DNA of 43,495 nucleotides from an uncultured Eubacteriales bacterium (lineage in GTDB: Bacteria; Bacillota; Clostridia; Lachnospirales; Bianqueaceae). A program made the position numbers and the translations under genes. The notes under the pieces are model-generated. The model searched no databases. It saw nothing but the letters and a program-made list of their open reading frames with translations, and was not told the origin of the DNA. The stretch covers positions 1 through 43,495 of the forward strand of contig CACZRP010000103.1 of NCBI GenBank assembly GCA_902783575.1, given 5' to 3'. This document shows positions 1 to 26,787 of this stretch, in pieces (positions within the stretch are counted from its first letter, which is position 1; each line of letters starts with the position of its first letter).

Positions 1-83
1 CCCATTTCGAACACGACGGTTAAGCCACAGACGGCCGATGGTACTTGGCGGGGGACTGCCTGGGAGAGTAGGAGGTTGCCAGC
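1..83 (+). rRNA. rrf: 5S ribosomal RNA, 3' part
   Basis: The window opens inside a 5S rRNA. The segment CCATTTCGAACACGACGGTTAAGCC and the closing GGAGGTTGCCAGC are the conserved loop B/C region and the 3' strand of 5S rRNA in Firmicutes. The 5' third lies outside the window. It presumably ends an rRNA operon to the left. A Rho-independent terminator follows about 30 bp downstream. The exact 3' end is judged by pairing and could differ by a few bases. Confidence 0.93.
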
Positions 84-115
84 TTTTAAATTTGCCTCGA
101 GTTAGCCACATCAAA

Positions 116-143: not shown

Positions 144-292
144 GAGTATATATCTGCCCAGGTGTTAAGCGTTAAATAATCCGTCGGATTCTATAAGGAT
201 CCGGCTTCATCTATAATAAAGGGGTAAGTAGTTTTTTACTTCAATCAGGCAACGAAGCCTGAAAGGACAAAGGGAAATTTTATTGCATATTA
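144..292. other. Non-coding stretch with small hairpins
   Basis: No credible gene is seen. A TATAAT at 212-217 could be a -10 box, but no good -35 lies 16-18 bp upstream. Downstream of it are two small dyads: AAGTA/TACTT around a T-rich loop near 226-241, and TCAGGC (245-250)/GCCTGA (257-262). If the -10 is real, a short structured transcript would lead into the repeat array that starts near 293. Confidence 0.35.
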
Positions 293-395
293 CCTCCCCT
301 GCGGGGAGGAGAAGTGTATAAAATGGGCATGACTGAAGTGGTTCTCCTCTCTGCTGGGGAGGCAGTCATAAGGATTCTTGAAAAGATCTCCTCCC
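293..395. repeat. Diverged inverted-end units preceding the 36-bp array
   Basis: CCTCCCC (293-299) and GGGGAGG (303-309) form a perfect 7-bp stem with a 3-nt loop. Two longer segments follow whose ends are complementary: GGAGGAGAA (305-313) with TTCTCCTC (342-349), and GGGGAGGCAGTC from 356 with CTCCTCCC ending at 395. They copy the layout of the adjacent 36-bp units, but with GGAGG/CCTCC ends instead of GTAGG/CCTAC and with looser lengths. I read them as diverged members of the same array. Confidence 0.5.
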
Positions 396-399
396 TGTG

Positions 400-733
400 G
401 TAGGCAGTCAGGCCATTTTCCTGATAGTTTCCTACTGGACGGTAGGAACTGCAGCCAATTTCCTGCAGACTTCCTACTGACTTTCTTCTTGATGGTAGGA
501 AGTCTTGTCTAAATACAGATAACTTCCTACTGTAATGGTAGGAAGTCGTGTCTTGTATCTGAATATTTCCTACCCATGGCAAGTAACTGGGTAGGCAGTC
601 AGGCCAAATGCCTGCATATTTCCTACCCAAGAGTAGGAAGTCGTGCCATGTTTGTGTAAACTTCCTACTGTCTGAGGCTGAGGCGTCAGAATGTGAGGTA
701 GAAAATATAGTCAAATGCCTGATAACTTCCTAC
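400..733. repeat. Array A: seven 36-bp units with inverted ends GTAGG...CCTAC
   Basis: Seven units are each exactly 36 bp: 400-435, 442-477, 495-530, 538-573, 591-626, 633-668 and 698-733. Each starts GTAGG (most GTAGGAAGTC or GTAGGCAGTC; the last GTAGAAAATA) and ends TTCCTAC. The inner 20-odd bases vary, often with a weak inner dyad such as CAGGC/GCCTG in unit 5. Spacers are 6, 17, 7, 17, 6 and 29 bp. Within a unit the two ends pair. Across the short spacers the end of one unit also pairs with the start of the next (TTCCTAC-6 nt-GTAGGAA), so two alternative folds exist. No cas gene or transposase is near. The family is not one I recognise. Confidence 0.8.
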
Positions 734-1026: not shown

Positions 1027-1083
1027 CTAGTTTGAGTTAGTGTCCTCTTCAGTTTTATAAATTTATTCAGAAAGGTGGTGAGC

Positions 1084-4000
1084 ATGTTGAAGAGAGCAAA
1101 ACAGTTGGTTTCTATTCTTCTTATCTTTGTTCTTATTATCAGCAACTTCAATGTGCTTACTGCGTTCGCTGATACAAATATCAATGAAGAGCTTTCTACT
1201 CAGGAATCTTCTTATGAGGAAAGCTCTGAATCCGAATATTTTGAATCCAGCGCCCCTGAGCAGAATTCTGATTCTCAGGAGAGCTCTACAAGTGATGAAT
1301 CTACCACAGTGCCAGATGAGCAGACGGAAGAAAGCTTTACGATAGAAGAATCTTCCCAAGCAACCGAATCTTCTGTCACGGATTCGTCTGTCAATAACGA
1401 ATCCAGCAATTCTGCTTCCAGCACTACCGAATCCAGTGCTCTGAACTCTGAAGAAAATTCTTCTGAAGTGTCTGAAGCTGTGGATTCAACGATCTCAGAA
1501 AATTCTACCACCCCTGCGCAGGATCAGAATTCTTCCGTGCCGGAAGAAGCTACGAACGCAAACAATTCTAGCCAGGCTGTTTCCGAACCCACAGAATCTT
1601 CTCAGACGACTACTGAGCAGGATTCCATTGCCCAGACAGCTGAACCTGCACCCTTTGAGCAGGAACTGAAGGCCGAGCTTAAGGACAAGCAGGAAAACGT
1701 CTTCTTCACTGCCAAAGTGAAGTCGATTCTCCCTCAGGGCGCAGCGCTCAGTGTGAAGCAGGAGAAGAGCGAAAAGCAAGATACTGTTCTCGCTTTTTCT
1801 CTTAATCTTACCAAGGCCAATTCCACTGCTATCACCGAGGGCATCTTCCAACTGACCTTTGAAAGCAAGCTTTTCGAGAATTCCGCTAAAAAGCTTGAGG
1901 TATGGACTGTTGAAAAGGAAGGCCAGCACAAGGAAACAAAGATCGAAGCAGCTGCCTTCAAAGACAACAAATTCACCCTGACCGTATCTTCTCTCAATGT
2001 TCGTTTTGAAGTACGTCCCGAAGAAGATCATCAGCAGGACGAGCAGGCAGGAGCCGCCGCACAGAACCCGACCAATGCCCAGCCCGCCGCAGATACTCAA
2101 AATTCTCAGCCGACATCGGAGGCTCAGACTTCACAGCCGGCAGCAGAGTCAGAAAACGTCCAGGGCGCCACAGCAGCCCAGTCCTCACAGTCCGAAACCA
2201 AAGAAAACAACACACCCGAATCGTCTGCAGCAGAAACTGCACTGGCACTTGCTCAGCAGAAAGCCATCGCTCCCGAAGACAGAGCTCTTACCGAAGATCC
2301 TGCCAACGAGTATCTTCCCGAAAATGCCATCTGGGCCAACGGTGATCTTTATCTGACAGGAAAGATGCCTCAAAACGCCATCGTCGAAGCAACCCCTGTA
2401 ACGGTAGAGATTGATGGCGAATACGTCATTGACGCTTATGATATCAAAATCTATGCCAACGAAAATCAAAAGGCAAAGGGAGAAACCTGGCAGCCGGCCT
2501 CCAGTGAGGTGACGGTACATTTCTTTGCAGAATCTGCTGACCAGGTTCATGTTTATCACACTCCTGACGGATCCATGACTCCGGAACTGGTGGATACGGT
2601 CGATGTAGAGGACGGATGGGCGGAGTTCGATGCTTCCCATTTCTCCACCTACACATTTTCCTTCTTTGAAGATCTTTACAATCATGCGGTCAATGCCGTA
2701 AGAAATACCCTTTATCCCAATACTGTCTACGAAAACGATGAGATCATCCTTACCGGAAACCTTCCCCGCAACGCTGTGATCGAAGCGGAAAAGGTGGACG
2801 TGCAGATTGAAGGACGTCAGACGCTTGTCGCTTATGATATTACCATTTACCAGAATTCCTTCTTCAAGGCCCTTGGAATCGCATGGCAGCCCAAAGAAGG
2901 AACCGTTAAGGTGGAAATCAAGAGCGATGCCTTTAATGGAATTAAGCATGGACTAACTGTTTATCATCTTGACGACGCTTCCGCCGAAGCCGAGATGATT
3001 CAGGAGGATGTGGCGATTGAAAACGGCAGTGTCTCCTTTGATGCCGACAGCTTTTCCGTATATGCACTGACTGACGAATATCTTCGTACCTACCATTTCA
3101 TTACCTATAACAACAGCACAGATATGCAGTATGTCGAATATCAGATTTTCACTGATCTCGGCACTACTACCTATACCCAAACCATTAAAAACGGTGAAAG
3201 CCTGGTTATCCCTCAGCTTCCTGCTCTGCAGGGAAGTGACACATCAACATTTACCGGATGGTTTGTGGCGTCCGGCGTTACCCTTGCGAATGGAGTATAT
3301 ACATACACCACTCTATCCGATACGCCCTTTGACTTTGAAAACATACCTGAAATTACTCATACCGAGACGGTCTATCTGTTTGCTAAATTTGCTGACTATG
3401 CCTATGTGATTTTCCATGATCAGTATAACGGATCTATTCAAGGTTTCCCTGTGGCATCAACCCGCAGAGGAGAAAAGATAAATGGTGAACCTGCTGCCAC
3501 TGCCACCATTCGTATTGATGATTTTGCTGTCAGCTATGATGACAACTCAGATGAGAATACTGCTCCCAGCATGTCGTTCCATGGATGGTCTTATACGCCT
3601 ATCACCGAACCGGGTGCTGCTGTAGATGATAATGGCGATCCTGTTCAAAGAATCGAAGCGGAAAGCATAACTATTGAAGAAAATACTCATCTGTATCCTA
3701 TTTTCAGTTCTATCTACTGGCTGAATTACTATTCCGGTCCCGCCGGTTCCGGTGCATCCTATATTCCTTCCGCATATTATTACGCAGGTGAAGGTAAAGA
3801 AGGAAATTCTCTGCAGGTGCCTGTACGCAGCGGTTACAATTTTGACGGATGGTATACAGGATCAGTTACCACAACAGACAATGGTGATGGTACTACTACC
3901 GAAACCGTCAATTATGAAACTAAAATTGCAAATGCTGATGGAACTCTAGTGGTGGGAGCCAGTGCTGCCGGTATCAGTGTTACAAATGGAAGACTGCTGC

Positions 4001-7000
4001 TGACTCAGAATACGACCATTTATGCCAAATGGCGAGAGAGTGCGGTTCATTATGCTGTAGTAATCTGGAGACAGAAAGCGACGGATACCCCGAACCTTGC
4101 GAATACGGCCAAATCCTATGACTATGCCGAAAGCATTTCATTATCCGGAACCACTGGCGAAATGGTCAGTGTCGCCAATGCGTACAAACAGTATGGAGGC
4201 AGTGGGGACTATTTCGGCTTCTCTTACAGCCGCTGCGATAACAGCAAGACCATCGCTAGTGATGGTTCCACTGTACTGAATGTCTACTACGATAGAAATG
4301 TACATACGCTTACGTTTAGAGTTAGAAATAGCACAGTTAGGACTATCACGGCTCTTTATGGTGCTAGCATTCAACACTATTTTCCCATCGTTGGAACCAA
4401 TGGAACCAGTTATAATGGTTATTCATGGACTGCAGACATGGTATATTCTTATGAATTAGCAACCATTGAAACCATGCCCGACGCTAATGTAACATTTACT
4501 TCACGGTATAGAGGTACTGCAAAAACTATTTACTACTATGTAGAGATTGGAGATGTGTCGGAGAGCCTCGGAACTACCCGGAGATTTAACGAAAAATTAT
4601 ATACACTTTATAAAACAGTCAACCATAACTTTAATTATTTAACTTATGATGAGGAATATCATCCCATTGAAGGTTATGTCCGAAGCCATACCAATGCGGA
4701 GCCTGCTTTTGGCAACAATAATCAGGCCAACATCGGCTATGGAAATACCAACTATCTTTACTATGACCGTGATGCATTCACAATTACATTCCTGGATTCT
4801 TATACCAGCAGTAACGTATATGTGAATGGAAACCAGTTGGAAGAGCAGACAGTTCTCTTCAGTGAAAAAATCAAAAATCACCTTCCAGCTAATCCTTCTG
4901 CCGTACAGATTATTGACAATGATCCTCTGCCGAGGGAGGGCTACGAGTTCACCGGCTGGTACACGGATGCTGCCTGCACCACCAGAGCATTCTTCGAAGA
5001 TAATGAGGAATACCGGAATTACACGGGAAGCAAGGCTCTTTATGAGAAGATGCCGGCCTATAACCTTCGATTCTATGCTGGCTGGGATACCATCTGGTAT
5101 CTGATCGAGATTGACCCCAACTACGGTACTATGAACAGCGGCGCCAGCGATTCCACCTGGTTCTGGGAGCCCTACAACGGTGAACCCATTGAAGAGTATA
5201 CCTGGGTAAGAAGAGATTACGAAGAATCTGTCACCGGTACCTACTATTATGTTAAACATGACCGTGCCTATTATGGTTATGGGGATGAATATGTCAACGG
5301 TGAAAACCAGGAACGTCATACCTACTACACTACAAATCCCGGCGAGGCCACAGACCTGACAACTTACAAATATGCCAGCAACGCCTATCGTTATGCCGGA
5401 TGGTACGAGGTTCATGAAGATGGTACGGAAACTCTGTATCATTTTGGCGAGCCGGTTACCCATAATATCAAGCTGATTCTTCACTGGAAGAAGATTGGCA
5501 CCTATTATGTCAGGTACAACGCAGTGGTAGAGCAGGATGGCAAGCTTATCAATGGTGTTATCGATAATGGTGATGCCAATGACCAGCTCTTCGTTGAACT
5601 GGATGAAGCAGACTATGCCGACAACGCGGACGTGGTAATCTCCCGTTCAGTCAAGGCACCGGAAAGCTACAACTTTATCGGCTGGAAGATTCGAGGTGAT
5701 GAGAGCGGAAAAATCTATTATCCCGGCCAATCCTTTGAATTCCATTCCACTTATGCAGTGACCATCACCGAGCAAGGCAACCCACATGAAACCATTTTCC
5801 TGGATGCGGTTTACAGCTACATCGATACAGCTAAAATTGTCTATGATGCCAATGGCGGTATCATTAATCCAGATACTGTTAATTATGGCGGACCCACAGG
5901 AGAAAGTACGGTAGAGCCGAGAAAAAGCTGCGACACGGAAGCAGGTACTGCTACCATCTCCAATCTGGTGAATAACAGCAGTGTTATCCTGAGTGATGGC
6001 ACAGGTTTTACCAGAGCAGGTGCAGTGCTGACTGGATGGAATACTGAGCCCGATGCCAGCGGTACTCATTATGAACTTGGAAGTTCCGATTACTATGTAG
6101 ACAATAAGGAACCGATTAAGCTTTACGCTGAATGGCAGGTTAAGGTTTACTTCCACCTGAATAAGCCTTCTGCAGAAGCAAACTTCGGAGGGACTTGGGA
6201 TCCGAGAGTCTATACTCTGGGACCAGATGACCCCCCCATTTACTCTCGAATGGCCTATATCGGAGCACCGATTGAAAAGCCTGAGCTGGATCCAGAGTAT
6301 ACTGGAGAAGAAAATCTATTCTTCCATTACTGGGGAACCCAACGCTATGGTGATGATACTGCGATTGAGGAGTATGATTTTACTAAGCCCATCAACGGAG
6401 AACTTCATCTGTATGCCTACTGGGCAGGCCCAATCGAGGTACCGGTTCATGCAGTAGACAGTTCCAGTCAGACCCTGGTGAATAAAGACAGTGTATGGCT
6501 TGGTAAAACGGTCATTGAAGTAGGCGCAGACCCCATTCGTTTGGTGACAAAGGAAAACGCGAAGGTGTATGCTTCGGATGTTCCTGACGGTTACGAATAT
6601 GCCTTTGCGGCAGTACATAGCAGTACAGCCGGAATTCAAAGCATTTCCGAAGATGAGGCCATCACAGAGCTTTTCTACAACTCTTCCGAAAAAAAGGTAT
6701 ACGTTCGGTACACTGATGGAAGTACGGCTCCTCTTGCTGATGAGGATGAGGTTTACCTGGTTTTCTATCAGCAGAAGGAACTGCCCATCGGATATAAGCT
6801 TGCAGAAATGGGCGGTGCCCTGACTACAAAGACTGTGAGCGGATCGGCTCCCACTGGAACGGGCTCTCTGGGCAGTTACAGCATGAGCAGTAATGTGATC
6901 TCGCCTCTTAACTGGGCAAATTACAACAGTAACGGCTCCAACTATTATGCGTATGCTATTGGCCCGGAGAATGCTTCGGCAACGGAACAATTGCAGATTA

Positions 7001-8901
7001 TAACAAGCTCCAACAACCAGGATACCAACCGGCCGACTCTGCAGATCCGTAATACCTGGAGAGGTTTTGAGTATTCTCTCACTGGAAGCGAGTGGATTCA
7101 CTGCGGATATGAAAATCTCCAGCTTTATGTGATTTATTTCGAATCTCATCCCACTATCATTACTTTGACCGAAAAGACCATCGGTACAGAGCTTGATATG
7201 GGAGAAGAATTTGAATATACCATTACCATTGAAACCACGACCACGACTAAAGAAACTCAAGAGTACTGGATTCTTGGCAATTGGGTAAGCTGGGAAGAGC
7301 CTACAATTGAATCGACTTCGAGTACAGAAACACAAACAATCTCCTTATCTGATGGATTACAAAAATCAGAGACACTGTTTTATACTTATAGTAATTCATC
7401 TACACAGCCAACGACACATTTTGGTTATCAAACAAGATCCACCACGACAACAGAAGTCACCCAAACCATCACCATCACCCAGACGCCCAAGACCGGCTTT
7501 GTCACCGATCACGATGGAACGGGCAGCAGTCATGTCAGCCGGTATGTATATACCTATACAACATCGGCTGACAGTACAGACCAATCGGTAACCTATACCA
7601 ACACCCATACGCCCCTTACATTGGACGTGCATGTGGCTTTGGTTGGCGCTAACGGAATCATCCTGGACGATAACGACCGAGCCTCCAGTGGATATACTAT
7701 CTCGCTGGCGCTGGGAGAGGAAAAGACCTTCCTGACGGAGATTAGTCCGGAAGCTCTGTTCAAAGGGGATGCCAGTCTCTACAGCTTCGCCGGAGTGATT
7801 TACGGCACCAGCGGCGATACTCAGGGCGATCCGGTTACGGTACTTGACTCTGATGTCAGCAAGATTGGATACAAGCAGCTGACACCGCCCGACGGCAACA
7901 TTTATGAGCTTTGTCTTGATGGCGATACAGCATCAAGACTGGGTGTCGGAAAGATTTATTATCTCTTCTATCCCATGCCTAAGCTGGTATATGTGAAGGA
8001 AGCGGCTGGAGGACAGCTGGAACGGATTACAGGAGCCGACGGCGGTGACATCACTTATAATGGTGCGGTAATCCAGCTCAACGGCGTTGATGTCAAACAG
8101 GATCAGAAACTTCATATAAGTAACAGCGCATTCATGATCTCCCAGACTGTGGGCAGCGGCAACTTCAATATGCCGCCTCATCTTGATGATGGAAATGAAA
8201 AGCTGTTCCTGAATTATGTGAAGCTTGGTGCTGGTCGTGAAGATGCAACTCAGATAGAAAATCTGGACGGCTGGACCGACACGAAGGCCATGCAGCTGAA
8301 GGTGATTGACAACCAGGTGAAATGGAGTCTGGATGGCGAAACCTGGAATACCTTCAGCGGAGCCCCCACCATATACGCCATCTATCATGAGATCGGATAT
8401 GATCTGACCATCAAGAAGACGGTGGAAAATGGAAACGGTTCGCAAACCTTTGGACTTACCATCTCATCGTTTGCGATTACAGAAACAAGCTATGCAGTCA
8501 CTGGAACCGGAACGGCTACGGTAGCCGCAATACCTGCGACAAGTACCGAACCGGGAACCATTCATCTGACGGTGCGACACGGAAGTGAAATCACTATCAG
8601 TGGACTGGGAAGAGGAGAATATACTCTGATTGAAACCGGTGAGTGCTTTGAGTTAATCAATGCGTCAGTTGCCAAAGAGGGTATTACTGAGCCGGAGAAA
8701 CCGGGTATTGCTGACAACAGTATCACCTTTGATCTGGACAAGAATTCCACTGCGGAACTGACCAACAAGCTTGTGACCCCGGCGCCGACAGGTCTGCATA
8801 CAGATCTGACGCCTTATCTCTGGATGGTTCTGACGGGAGGCCTGATGGCTCTCCTGGGCATCCTGATCCGGCATCGCCGGAGAAAGGAGGAAGAGCTATG
8901 A
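1084..8901 (+). CDS. Giant cell-wall-anchored pilus adhesin with InlB-type repeats
   Basis: A surface protein of 2605 residues. Residues 1-29 are a signal peptide (hydrophobic core, cleavage after AFA). A Ser/Glu/Thr-rich stalk follows to about residue 200. Near nt 2300-3080 two related domains occur in tandem, each with an 'ENxxxLTGxxPxNAxxEA' start and a YDIxIY core. From about nt 3080 to 6430 there are roughly eight InlB/Listeria-Bacteroides-type repeats marked by GW(Y/F/N) cores, for example near 3256, 3847, 4951, 5398, 5680 and 6036. The end is APTG (residues 2567-2570), a hydrophobic helix and RHRRRKEEEL, a sortase signal with an xPTG motif in place of LPXTG. The start is set at ATG 1084 because AAAGGTGG ends 5 nt upstream; an in-frame GTG at 1075 lies inside that site. 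It probably caps the pilus, as Cpa does in streptococcal FCT loci; this is inferred from position. Confidence 0.85.
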   Translation: MLKRAKQLVSILLIFVLIISNFNVLTAFADTNINEELSTQESSYEESSESEYFESSAPEQNSDSQESSTSDESTTVPDEQTEESFTIEESSQATESSVTDSSVNNESSNSASSTTESSALNSEENSSEVSEAVDSTISENSTTPAQDQNSSVPEEATNANNSSQAVSEPTESSQTTTEQDSIAQTAEPAPFEQELKAELKDKQENVFFTAKVKSILPQGAALSVKQEKSEKQDTVLAFSLNLTKANSTAITEGIFQLTFESKLFENSAKKLEVWTVEKEGQHKETKIEAAAFKDNKFTLTVSSLNVRFEVRPEEDHQQDEQAGAAAQNPTNAQPAADTQNSQPTSEAQTSQPAAESENVQGATAAQSSQSETKENNTPESSAAETALALAQQKAIAPEDRALTEDPANEYLPENAIWANGDLYLTGKMPQNAIVEATPVTVEIDGEYVIDAYDIKIYANENQKAKGETWQPASSEVTVHFFAESADQVHVYHTPDGSMTPELVDTVDVEDGWAEFDASHFSTYTFSFFEDLYNHAVNAVRNTLYPNTVYENDEIILTGNLPRNAVIEAEKVDVQIEGRQTLVAYDITIYQNSFFKALGIAWQPKEGTVKVEIKSDAFNGIKHGLTVYHLDDASAEAEMIQEDVAIENGSVSFDADSFSVYALTDEYLRTYHFITYNNSTDMQYVEYQIFTDLGTTTYTQTIKNGESLVIPQLPALQGSDTSTFTGWFVASGVTLANGVYTYTTLSDTPFDFENIPEITHTETVYLFAKFADYAYVIFHDQYNGSIQGFPVASTRRGEKINGEPAATATIRIDDFAVSYDDNSDENTAPSMSFHGWSYTPITEPGAAVDDNGDPVQRIEAESITIEENTHLYPIFSSIYWLNYYSGPAGSGASYIPSAYYYAGEGKEGNSLQVPVRSGYNFDGWYTGSVTTTDNGDGTTTETVNYETKIANADGTLVVGASAAGISVTNGRLLLTQNTTIYAKWRESAVHYAVVIWRQKATDTPNLANTAKSYDYAESISLSGTTGEMVSVANAYKQYGGSGDYFGFSYSRCDNSKTIASDGSTVLNVYYDRNVHTLTFRVRNSTVRTITALYGASIQHYFPIVGTNGTSYNGYSWTADMVYSYELATIETMPDANVTFTSRYRGTAKTIYYYVEIGDVSESLGTTRRFNEKLYTLYKTVNHNFNYLTYDEEYHPIEGYVRSHTNAEPAFGNNNQANIGYGNTNYLYYDRDAFTITFLDSYTSSNVYVNGNQLEEQTVLFSEKIKNHLPANPSAVQIIDNDPLPREGYEFTGWYTDAACTTRAFFEDNEEYRNYTGSKALYEKMPAYNLRFYAGWDTIWYLIEIDPNYGTMNSGASDSTWFWEPYNGEPIEEYTWVRRDYEESVTGTYYYVKHDRAYYGYGDEYVNGENQERHTYYTTNPGEATDLTTYKYASNAYRYAGWYEVHEDGTETLYHFGEPVTHNIKLILHWKKIGTYYVRYNAVVEQDGKLINGVIDNGDANDQLFVELDEADYADNADVVISRSVKAPESYNFIGWKIRGDESGKIYYPGQSFEFHSTYAVTITEQGNPHETIFLDAVYSYIDTAKIVYDANGGIINPDTVNYGGPTGESTVEPRKSCDTEAGTATISNLVNNSSVILSDGTGFTRAGAVLTGWNTEPDASGTHYELGSSDYYVDNKEPIKLYAEWQVKVYFHLNKPSAEANFGGTWDPRVYTLGPDDPPIYSRMAYIGAPIEKPELDPEYTGEENLFFHYWGTQRYGDDTAIEEYDFTKPINGELHLYAYWAGPIEVPVHAVDSSSQTLVNKDSVWLGKTVIEVGADPIRLVTKENAKVYASDVPDGYEYAFAAVHSSTAGIQSISEDEAITELFYNSSEKKVYVRYTDGSTAPLADEDEVYLVFYQQKELPIGYKLAEMGGALTTKTVSGSAPTGTGSLGSYSMSSNVISPLNWANYNSNGSNYYAYAIGPENASATEQLQIITSSNNQDTNRPTLQIRNTWRGFEYSLTGSEWIHCGYENLQLYVIYFESHPTIITLTEKTIGTELDMGEEFEYTITIETTTTTKETQEYWILGNWVSWEEPTIESTSSTETQTISLSDGLQKSETLFYTYSNSSTQPTTHFGYQTRSTTTTEVTQTITITQTPKTGFVTDHDGTGSSHVSRYVYTYTTSADSTDQSVTYTNTHTPLTLDVHVALVGANGIILDDNDRASSGYTISLALGEEKTFLTEISPEALFKGDASLYSFAGVIYGTSGDTQGDPVTVLDSDVSKIGYKQLTPPDGNIYELCLDGDTASRLGVGKIYYLFYPMPKLVYVKEAAGGQLERITGADGGDITYNGAVIQLNGVDVKQDQKLHISNSAFMISQTVGSGNFNMPPHLDDGNEKLFLNYVKLGAGREDATQIENLDGWTDTKAMQLKVIDNQVKWSLDGETWNTFSGAPTIYAIYHEIGYDLTIKKTVENGNGSQTFGLTISSFAITETSYAVTGTGTATVAAIPATSTEPGTIHLTVRHGSEITISGLGRGEYTLIETGECFELINASVAKEGITEPEKPGIADNSITFDLDKNSTAELTNKLVTPAPTGLHTDLTPYLWMVLTGGLMALLGILIRHRRRKEEEL

Positions 8902-25045: not shown

Positions 25046-25079
25046 AAAATTAATCAATTCGAAAGGACGGTACCCTTTG

Positions 25080-25721
25080 ATGTCAAAAGAGTTTGAAGCT
25101 GTCATTTTTGATCTGGATGGAGTTATCTGCTTTACAGATGAATACCACTATCAGGCATGGAAAGCCATGGCTGACGGAATCGGCGTTTATTTTGATCGCG
25201 AAATCAACAACCGCCTGAGAGGCGTAAGCCGTATGGCCAGCCTGGAGATTATTCTGGAGCGCTGCGATGAGAAGCTCTCCGATGAGCGCAAAGAAGAGCT
25301 GGCTGCTCAGAAGAATGAACTTTACAAGAAGCTGCTGGTGCAGATGTCTCCGGCGGACCTGTCCGATGAAGTCAGAAACGGTCTGAACGAGCTGCGAGCC
25401 CGGGGCTATAAACTGGCCATTGGTTCTTCTTCCAAGAACACGCCTTTCATTCTTAAGCAGATCGGACTGGATGGATTCTTTGATGCCGTTTCTGACGGAA
25501 ACAATATCACCAAATCCAAACCGGATCCGGAAGTCTTCCTGAAAGCTGCCGAAATGCTGGGCATTGCCCCTGAAAAATGCCTGGTAGTGGAGGACGCCAT
25601 CGCAGGAGCAGACGCAGCCCATGCCGGCGGTATGAAAGCTGCCTGCCTGGGAGATGCCGCAAAAGCCGGCGCCGGCGATTACAATATGACAACCTTCGGA
25701 GACCTTCTGAACATTCTGTAA
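25080..25721 (+). CDS. pgmB: Beta-phosphoglucomutase
   Basis: 213 residues. It interconverts beta-glucose 1-phosphate and glucose 6-phosphate, usually after maltose or trehalose phosphorolysis. Motif I is FDLDGV with Asp11 (phosphorylated) and Asp13 (acid/base). 'ICFTDEYHYQAWKAMA' and 'RLRGVSRMASLEIIL' are diagnostic of the subfamily (substrate-specificity loop with RGVSR). Motif II is GSSS, motif III Lys lies in KSKPDPE and motif IV is VVEDAIAG. No phosphorylase gene is next to it. The start is ATG 25080 rather than TTG 25077. It has its own promoter and terminator and is thus monocistronic. Confidence 0.92.
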   Translation: MSKEFEAVIFDLDGVICFTDEYHYQAWKAMADGIGVYFDREINNRLRGVSRMASLEIILERCDEKLSDERKEELAAQKNELYKKLLVQMSPADLSDEVRNGLNELRARGYKLAIGSSSKNTPFILKQIGLDGFFDAVSDGNNITKSKPDPEVFLKAAEMLGIAPEKCLVVEDAIAGADAAHAGGMKAACLGDAAKAGAGDYNMTTFGDLLNIL

Positions 25722-25828: not shown

Positions 25829-26153
25829 TAATGAATTTTTCCTGATATAAGGATTTTTTCATTATCGCTCTTTTTTTGTCATGAATAATTCATCGCAGAG
25901 GCAGTTTTTCACTACAAAAAGAATTAGAGTAATGATTATTTCAGCCAGCAGGCAGTTTTTCATTATCATTGGTTTTCGAATGTCCTGGTCTTGTCATGAA
26001 AATATACATGTATCATGAAAATATCATTGTTGCAGCCTGACTGGTCATTGATCGATAATGAGAAAATACAAATAGCGAGAATTATTCATTACGAAAAAGA
26101 GTAGAAAAATGTCAAAATAATGAAATAATGCTTCTATGGAGATTATTTCATTG
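25829..26153. repeat. Array B: six 36-bp units with inverted ends TAATGA...TCATTA
   Basis: Six units are each exactly 36 bp: 25829-25864, 25879-25914, 25930-25965, 25994-26029, 26056-26091 and 26118-26153. Ends are TAATGA or TCATGA on the left and TCATTA, TCACTA or TCATTG on the right. Interiors differ; some carry a second dyad (TCCT/AGGA in unit 1, GCC/GGC in unit 3, ATACATGTAT in unit 4), and unit 6 has an 11-bp perfect stem. Units 2 and 3 share the tail GGCAGTTTTTCA. Spacers are 14, 15, 28, 26 and 26 bp. The design equals that of the array at 400-733, but the end sequence is different. The 460-bp interval between pgmB and ogt contains nothing else that I can name. Confidence 0.75.
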
Positions 26154-26184: not shown

Positions 26185-26787
26185 TTATCTGACCCCGGAA
26201 CTTGAGCTGCCTGCTAAAAGCCCTTTCTTTTCCAGTGCCAGCAGGGTTTCCTTACGCCAGAGACCGCCGCCATAGCCGGTAAGTTTGCCGCCGGCACCCA
26301 TGACCCGGTGGCAGGGGACGATGATGGAAACGGGATTCCGGCCCACAGCGCCGCCGACGGCATGGCCCCCATTGTTTCTCGCTGAGGCTGTGCCGACAGA
26401 ATACTTTTTCCAAAGCCCGCCGTAGGTGATGGTCTCGCCATAGGGAATTTCCAGCAGCAGATTCCAGATTTTCAGCTGGAAGGGCGTACCCATCAGGTGG
26501 AGGGCAGGAGTGAAATCCGGGATCCCGCCGGAGAAATAGATATCCAGCCAGCGGCGGGCCGCCTCAAGATGAAGGGATTGGCGGCCTTCCTCAGAACGAA
26601 GAGACTCACGGCCATCCGAGTTCACAGAAGTTTCCTGGGCATCCTGCGGAAAATATCGCTGATTCAGAAACCAGATTCCCGTAAGACCGGTCTCATCAGC
26701 CCTGATCAGCATATCGCCCAGGGAAACGCCCAGGGATTTGCTCAAAGGATCGCCAAGAGGCGGGGTATATATCATATCAACTTCCAT
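26185..26787 (-). CDS. ogt: Methylated-DNA--protein-cysteine methyltransferase
   Basis: 200 residues. It moves the alkyl group from O6-alkylguanine (and O4-alkylthymine) in DNA to its own cysteine in a suicide reaction. The acceptor is Cys159 in IVPCHRVMGAGG, the family signature. 'GTPFQLKIWNLLLEIPYGETITYGGLWKKYSV' is the DNA-binding helix region with the arginine-finger segment 'ARNNGGHAVGGAVGRNP'. The N-terminal half is a variable RNase-H-like domain. AAGGAG lies 10 nt before the ATG. It diverges from the serpin gene. The gene's stop lies about 30 bp from repeat array B. Confidence 0.93.
   Translation of the reverse strand: MEVDMIYTPPLGDPLSKSLGVSLGDMLIRADETGLTGIWFLNQRYFPQDAQETSVNSDGRESLRSEEGRQSLHLEAARRWLDIYFSGGIPDFTPALHLMGTPFQLKIWNLLLEIPYGETITYGGLWKKYSVGTASARNNGGHAVGGAVGRNPVSIIVPCHRVMGAGGKLTGYGGGLWRKETLLALEKKGLLAGSSSSGVR

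Follow-up and report, generated by a model that had tools for sequence, protein, structure and literature searches.

In type III toxin-antitoxin systems (ToxIN), an array of ~36-nt repeats adjoins the gene for a nuclease. In the so-called REPtrons, REP/BIME sequences are associated with a RAYT (TnpA-REP) transposase; their small palindromic units are clustered between genes and are species-specific in sequence, many copies are unlinked to the enzyme gene, and the repeats of an enzyme often lie on both sides of its gene (PMC8266576). The homing endonuclease I-Bth0305I is described as a dimer whose DNA target is long, near 60 bp (PMC3943268). The arrays described here share features with each of these systems. 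The initial annotation knew of no element class that fits them, and our search of the available literature on repeats likewise turned up neither a description of such arrays nor one of the nuclease gene family that adjoins them, so that the repeat-enzyme pair is apparently undescribed.

The window analysed is the whole stretch of 43,495 nucleotides, and the array under study occupies positions 25829 to 26153. The six units of exactly 36 bp that had been proposed there were confirmed, with starts at 25829, 25879, 25930, 25994, 26056 and 26118. Unit 1 (25829..25864), unit 3 (25930..25965) and unit 5 (26056..26091), all read on the + strand as are the others, carry the ends TAATGA...TCATTA that had been assigned to all six, but unit 2 (25879..25914, TCATGA...TCACTA), unit 4 (25994..26029, TCATGA...TCATTG) and unit 6 (26118..26153, TAATGA...TCATTG) depart from them by one or two bases; given these departures, the true unit end is TMATGA, and the consensus of the array is TMATGA-N24-TCATKA. 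The pattern TMATGA-N24-TCAYTR has 9 matches on the two strands of the window against 0.04 expected, and none of 100 shuffles reached 9. The whole element (25829..26153, + strand, 325 bp here) is a divergent member of a dispersed set of six-unit arrays of ~334 bp that carry the TMATGA address, and is 10 bp short, or about one helical turn, between units 4 and 5. A gene for a HAD-family hydrolase (25077..25721, + strand) ends upstream of it, and a convergent gene for O6-methylguanine-DNA methyltransferase (26185..26787, - strand) lies on its other flank. In the window, Rfam matches over the gathering score are confined to tRNA and 5S, and the arrays match no Rfam family. Elsewhere in the window (positions 1075-8901), a protein of 2608 aa that contains Listeria-Bacteroides repeats is encoded where GC is lower, 42-51% as compared with mostly 53-60% further on.

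The genome to which the window belongs (G000) is a 2.5-Mb draft of 126 contigs with 86% completeness; this and the other genomes were sampled by stretches, so the numbers of arrays given for each genome are minimum values. A BLAST search with the array region found copies on at least 10 other contigs of G000, whereas further genomes from its genus or family gave none by this search, and a model of units 1-3 located 28 full-length elements in G000. All copies have six units, with start-to-start distances that are nearly always 50, 51, 63, 72 and 62 bp. About half of them have every end swapped for TCGAGGA/TCCTCGA in an unchanged layout, and copies with the two addresses often lie side by side in the same orientation. 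Perfect TCGAGGA units number 96 in G000; a reversed-pattern control gave 0, as did 18 further genomes from the family. Because the TMATGA and TCGAGGA sets align across the entire ~334 bp, including the spacers, they represent one element in which all twelve ends have been exchanged, in agreement with the earlier suggestion that ends are array-specific; the flanks of the copies do not align. One further copy is 11 bp short between units 4 and 5, which, like the 10-bp loss in the window, is close to one helical turn.

The arrays sit between genes, often between convergent pairs. No target-site duplication was detected, as words common to the left and right flanks amounted to 5.3 against 5.3 in permuted pairs, and a two-unit TCGAGG pattern had no match in viral contigs or plasmids. 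Addresses and layouts change so fast that a covariance model (R1) found relatives in genome G012 only. Near several arrays and nuclease genes of G000 (L016:5600-5760, L148:1200-1370, L149:2440-2580 and L026 near 17000), another, separate family of long inverted repeats recurs, TTTGCCTGGCTTAAT ... CAAGTCTTCCGCCTGTCAAGG ... CCTTGACAG ... TTAAGCCAGGCAAAGGA.

A second element, distinct from the TMATGA/TCGAGGA one, is represented near the start of the contig by array A (400..733, + strand). As had been noted earlier, its seven units are also 36 bp long and end in GTAGG...CCTAC (starts 400, 442, 495, 538, 591, 633 and 698). Array A is a variant of an 8-unit element, several copies of which elsewhere in G000 show the mirror-symmetric spacing 42,53,42,64,42,53,42. 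A short stretch of GGGGAGG/CCTCCCC sites (292..398) bears the address that adjoins a nuclease gene on contig C85. The contig end itself is occupied by a 5S rRNA gene (window 1-84), and the GGGGAGG sites and array A (together 292-733) start a few hundred bases later.

The design of the units was examined by a scan of ~0.5 Mb of G000 for at least three units with identical 6-bp inverted ends within 450 bp, at unit lengths from 24 to 60. Clusters pile up at 36 (17 clusters), as the initial annotation had anticipated; the 16 clusters at 34 are mostly the same arrays counted inward, other lengths gave 0-2 clusters, and shuffled sequence gave 0 at every length. Unit length is constant within an array family and differs among families, from 33 to 42 bp and, in one genome, 51 bp. 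Examples from other genomes are the TCAAGG and TGGGTC arrays of G012 (36 bp), the TACATC array of G004 (37 bp) and the TTATAC array of G010 (51 bp); samples of 0.2 Mb each from G007, G039 and G043 contained no arrays. At five loci of G010 (L094, L096, L099, L101 and L102), arrays of 51-53 bp units were observed (TTATACGCA, TTCTCA). The suggestion of a process that measures 36 bp thus holds insofar as 36 bp is the commonest unit length, but not as a universal ruler. The more general measured quantity is the helical phase of 10.5 bp between units: across 39 array families from many genomes (an extension of an initial computation on 19), unit spacings follow a period of 10.5 bp with a phase of 0.1 and a mean resultant of 0.72, a value that was reached in 0 of 5000 trials in which each family was shifted randomly by up to 5 bp.

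The alternative part of that suggestion, namely two half-sites at a fixed distance, fits the data. Among 61 distinct TMATGA units, pairing of the ends was 0.43 observed against 0.50 expected at positions 2/35 and 0.70 against 0.73 at positions 3/34, so that no covariation of the variable end positions with their partners was found beyond independence. Because the ends vary independently of their partners, the units look like duplex half-sites and not like RNA stems. Inside the unit, two half-site flavours, with TTC or TGC near positions 11-14, are usually present once each, and self-complementarity of the central four bases exceeds chance expectation. CRISPR arrays combine near-identical direct repeats and unique spacers; here, the units differ internally and the spacers are conserved between copies.

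Genes for homologous proteins of ~265 residues adjoin several of the arrays. Six of the seven paralogs in G000 adjoin an array with its own ends, namely TCGAGGA on contig C66, GGGGAGG on C85, TGTACAC on C21, GGTGC on C84, TGTCACA on C90 and, as judged by eye, a GCAC/CCG-type array on C83. The seventh (C70), in which PSF replaces the catalytic PDF with loss of the D, has no array beside it. Four of the six linked addresses (TCGAGGA, GGGGAGG, TGTCACA and GGTGC) recur in G000 at arrays far from the gene, including the GGGGAGG sites at window 292-398, and more than 20 array copies have no nuclease gene nearby. The 86%-complete draft of G000 shows no such gene next to arrays with the TMATGA or GTAGG address.

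Linkage of gene and array was evaluated on homologs from Clostridia and Fibrobacter. An alignment of eight members contained no stretch of sufficient conservation for the contig search, for which three sequences served as queries. At the first 37 homolog loci, in which two genes are counted twice, a strict detector finds arrays at 14, compared with 8 of 581 control windows; in an independent homolog set from the class, arrays occur at 12 of 20 loci against the same 8 of 581 (P = 3e-15). Among homologs in named genomes, arrays adjoin 16 of the 44 that are full-length, as against none of 23 loci that share the nuclease domain only (P = 5e-4) and 0 of 67 shuffled sequences. The linked homologs include those of Butyrivibrio sp. 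VCD2006 and INlla16 and of four Fibrobacter MAGs that share one common layout; the strict detector registers no array at over half of the full-length homologs. In Butyrivibrio VCD2006, inverted arrays flank the gene on both sides and more copies are present elsewhere; in G045, where one homolog was scored, arrays lie on both sides (31 heptamer copies against 0.6 expected) and two further arrays are remote. A more divergent branch of the nuclease family reaches up to 17 copies in G010, and the gene at L102 adjoins an array. Presence within the class is patchy (29 of 393 genomes). Full-length matches to the nuclease were absent from viral contigs and plasmids, and a phage or plasmid origin was rejected for that reason. 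A trans-acting gene common to array-bearing genomes had been predicted; since this nuclease-like family adjoins arrays in many genomes, that gene is probably the one for the ~265-aa protein with the PD-(D/E)XK domain. Two nuclease-domain matches (G120:C6:36843 and G083:C25:2158) lie inside open frames of ~1230 residues, which are probably large proteins resembling PDC-S68.

Pfam and NCBIfam contain no family for the ~265-aa protein, and the PADLOC match is to the C-terminal nuclease domain of PDC-S68 proteins (E 1e-28). An AlphaFold model based on 40 homologs (pLDDT 88.7) is built from one helix, a three-stranded sheet, a second, long helix and the C-terminal domain. The last of these matches the catalytic domain of I-Bth0305I (Z 8.5, rmsd 2.7 over 89 residues), followed by Bax1 (Z 7.9) and Vsr (Z 7.1); a sequence search against solved structures gave a chance-level match only. 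In the 40 homologs, D192, E207 and H208 do not vary, and 39 of the 40 have E162. According to the model, which has the core fold together with the catalytic residues, the protein is a member of the PD-(D/E)XK / EDxHD nuclease superfamily, and cleavage is predicted. The N-terminal arm gave no specific match: it resembles integrase arm-binding or AP2-like domains only weakly (Foldseek E 0.5), and coiled-coil or prefoldin shapes in an unspecific way.

We consider it probable that the arrays are the cognate targets of the ~265-aa nuclease and have spread in a manner resembling REP/RAYT. The units, their phasing, the independence of the half-sites, the linkage of gene and array and the address common to linked and unlinked arrays are computed features, as are the conserved catalytic residues, the dispersal and the selection on addresses described below; binding, cleavage and the copying step are what we infer from them. 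The array at 25829-26153 would then be a non-autonomous copy of the dispersed element and a duplex target array for two-domain nucleases. Each 36-bp unit would be an inverted pair of half-sites, composed of an outer array-specific address of 6-7 bp and a more conserved inner part, and would bind two nuclease subunits, one per address, as the linkage and the site structure suggest. Because of the phasing, units would lie on one face of the helix, where several bound pairs may assemble into a larger complex. The nuclease gene would be embedded beside or between arrays of its own address, with gene-less copies scattered between genes, and its product would probably act on its own arrays and, together with host repair, drive their copying, as RAYT is thought to do for REPs; it is the dispersal and the flanking arrangement that point to this last step. 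In general terms, and with moderate confidence, the pair may constitute a new class, selfish or domesticated, in which a two-domain nuclease gene with its own address-coded arrays spreads phased copies of several units over the chromosome, a genome harbours several independent enzyme-address pairs, and addresses change in concert across all sites of an array.

Two species of one genus (G350 and G518) provide evidence on how the arrays are maintained. Three arrays occupy orthologous sites in both, and G518 has more. In the orthologous arrays, address bases are 93.5% identical, compared with 78.6% elsewhere in the arrays (P = 3e-8), and the same excess is seen in the gene-linked array (P = 0.0004) and in each of the two unlinked ones (P = 0.009 and 0.004). 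Because address bases are conserved above the rest, the addresses have been kept, which on this comparison would fit two readings, that the nuclease still uses them or that they serve the host. Given the retention of three arrays at orthologous sites, array movement appears not to be frequent in these species. Orthologous arrays at L301 and L303 (G350 and G518) differ by a whole unit-sized block that was gained or lost; growth and shrinkage of arrays by unit duplication is suggested.

The main alternative is a domesticated function for the host, as scaffold or in regulation. The arrays would serve as chromosomal scaffolds or regulatory sites for insulation, compaction or transcription end points, the nuclease family would be a resident DNA-binding protein, and spread would be a side effect. 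Purifying selection on addresses at unlinked arrays in the two species, retention at orthologous sites, positions between often convergent genes and a helical phasing that suggests an assembled complex all agree with such a role. However, the catalytic residues are nearly invariant, addresses change wholesale between species and among the paralogs of one genome, presence within the class is patchy and one element occurs with two address sets, so that we regard a domesticated host function as possible but unlikely.

Much less probable is a structured RNA, in which the transcribed array would fold into hairpins; one example would be an RNA antitoxin against a nuclease toxin, in the manner of type III systems. 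Single strands of the arrays do fold well because of the inverted repeats (z -3.8 and -3.2 for the two strands), and a nuclease gene is adjacent. Nevertheless, the variable end positions do not covary, spacing follows the helical repeat of DNA, no Rfam family reaches threshold here, more than 20 copies are at a distance from any nuclease gene, and the arrays consist of inverted pairs with conserved spacers and not of tandem direct repeats. The RNA stem reading was set aside as first choice after the covariation test.

Movement of REP/BIME elements by a Y1 (RAYT) transposase would account for dispersed, clustered intergenic palindromic units and for the GTAG with which array A starts, but appears very improbable, since the four Y1 genes of G000 (C81, C11, C119 and C32) have no adjoining arrays, the array-linked genes are PD-(D/E)XK-like, the half-sites look like duplex sites, and GTAG is confined to array A and absent from most addresses, including TMATGA, TCGAGGA, TGTCACA and GGTGC. 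A chance pattern of AT-rich intergenic DNA, suggested by the AT-richness of the window copy, has a negligible probability and is refuted by the expected number of matches, by the array-free shuffled sequence and by GC-rich addresses of the same design.

If the cognate-target reading is correct, bacteria of gut and rumen carry a widespread kind of repeat-enzyme pair, which was found here in Clostridia, cultured Butyrivibrio among them, and in Fibrobacter, and many long intergenic regions of such genomes would be accounted for. Dozens of natural pairs would become available in which related DNA-binding proteins are matched with distinct addresses of 6-7 bp, and a concerted change of specificity across a dozen sites would become testable. 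The fixed phasing suggests that the nucleoprotein assembly is a defined one.

Among known systems, ToxIN differs from the present arrays in having another nuclease fold, and here the units are inverted and spaced, RNA covariation is absent and gene-less arrays are scattered; Pfam gave no ToxN-type match to the array-linked nuclease. The PDC-S68 candidate defence proteins (PADLOC) have the C-terminal nuclease domain in common with it, but their profiles exceed 1200 residues and match at the C-terminus only, and the domain-only loci examined are without arrays. Homing endonucleases cut an empty allele and become copied into it. The EDxHD homing endonuclease I-Bth0305I is the nearest solved catalytic fold; here, in contrast, the N-terminal arm differs and a stand-alone bacterial gene lies beside its own target arrays, instead of an intron gene homing into the gene it cuts. 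REPtrons share with the present arrays the clustered intergenic palindromic units, the unlinked copies and an enzyme gene flanked by repeats. REP/RAYT recognition involves a single-stranded hairpin; here, the ends without covariation and the helical phasing are more in line with duplex. The linked enzyme is PD-(D/E)XK-like and not a Y1 HUH transposase, most families are without the foot (GTAG or a similar tetranucleotide) that precedes the REP palindrome, phased and probably duplex half-sites stand in a fixed layout, and several enzyme-address pairs are found in a single genome.
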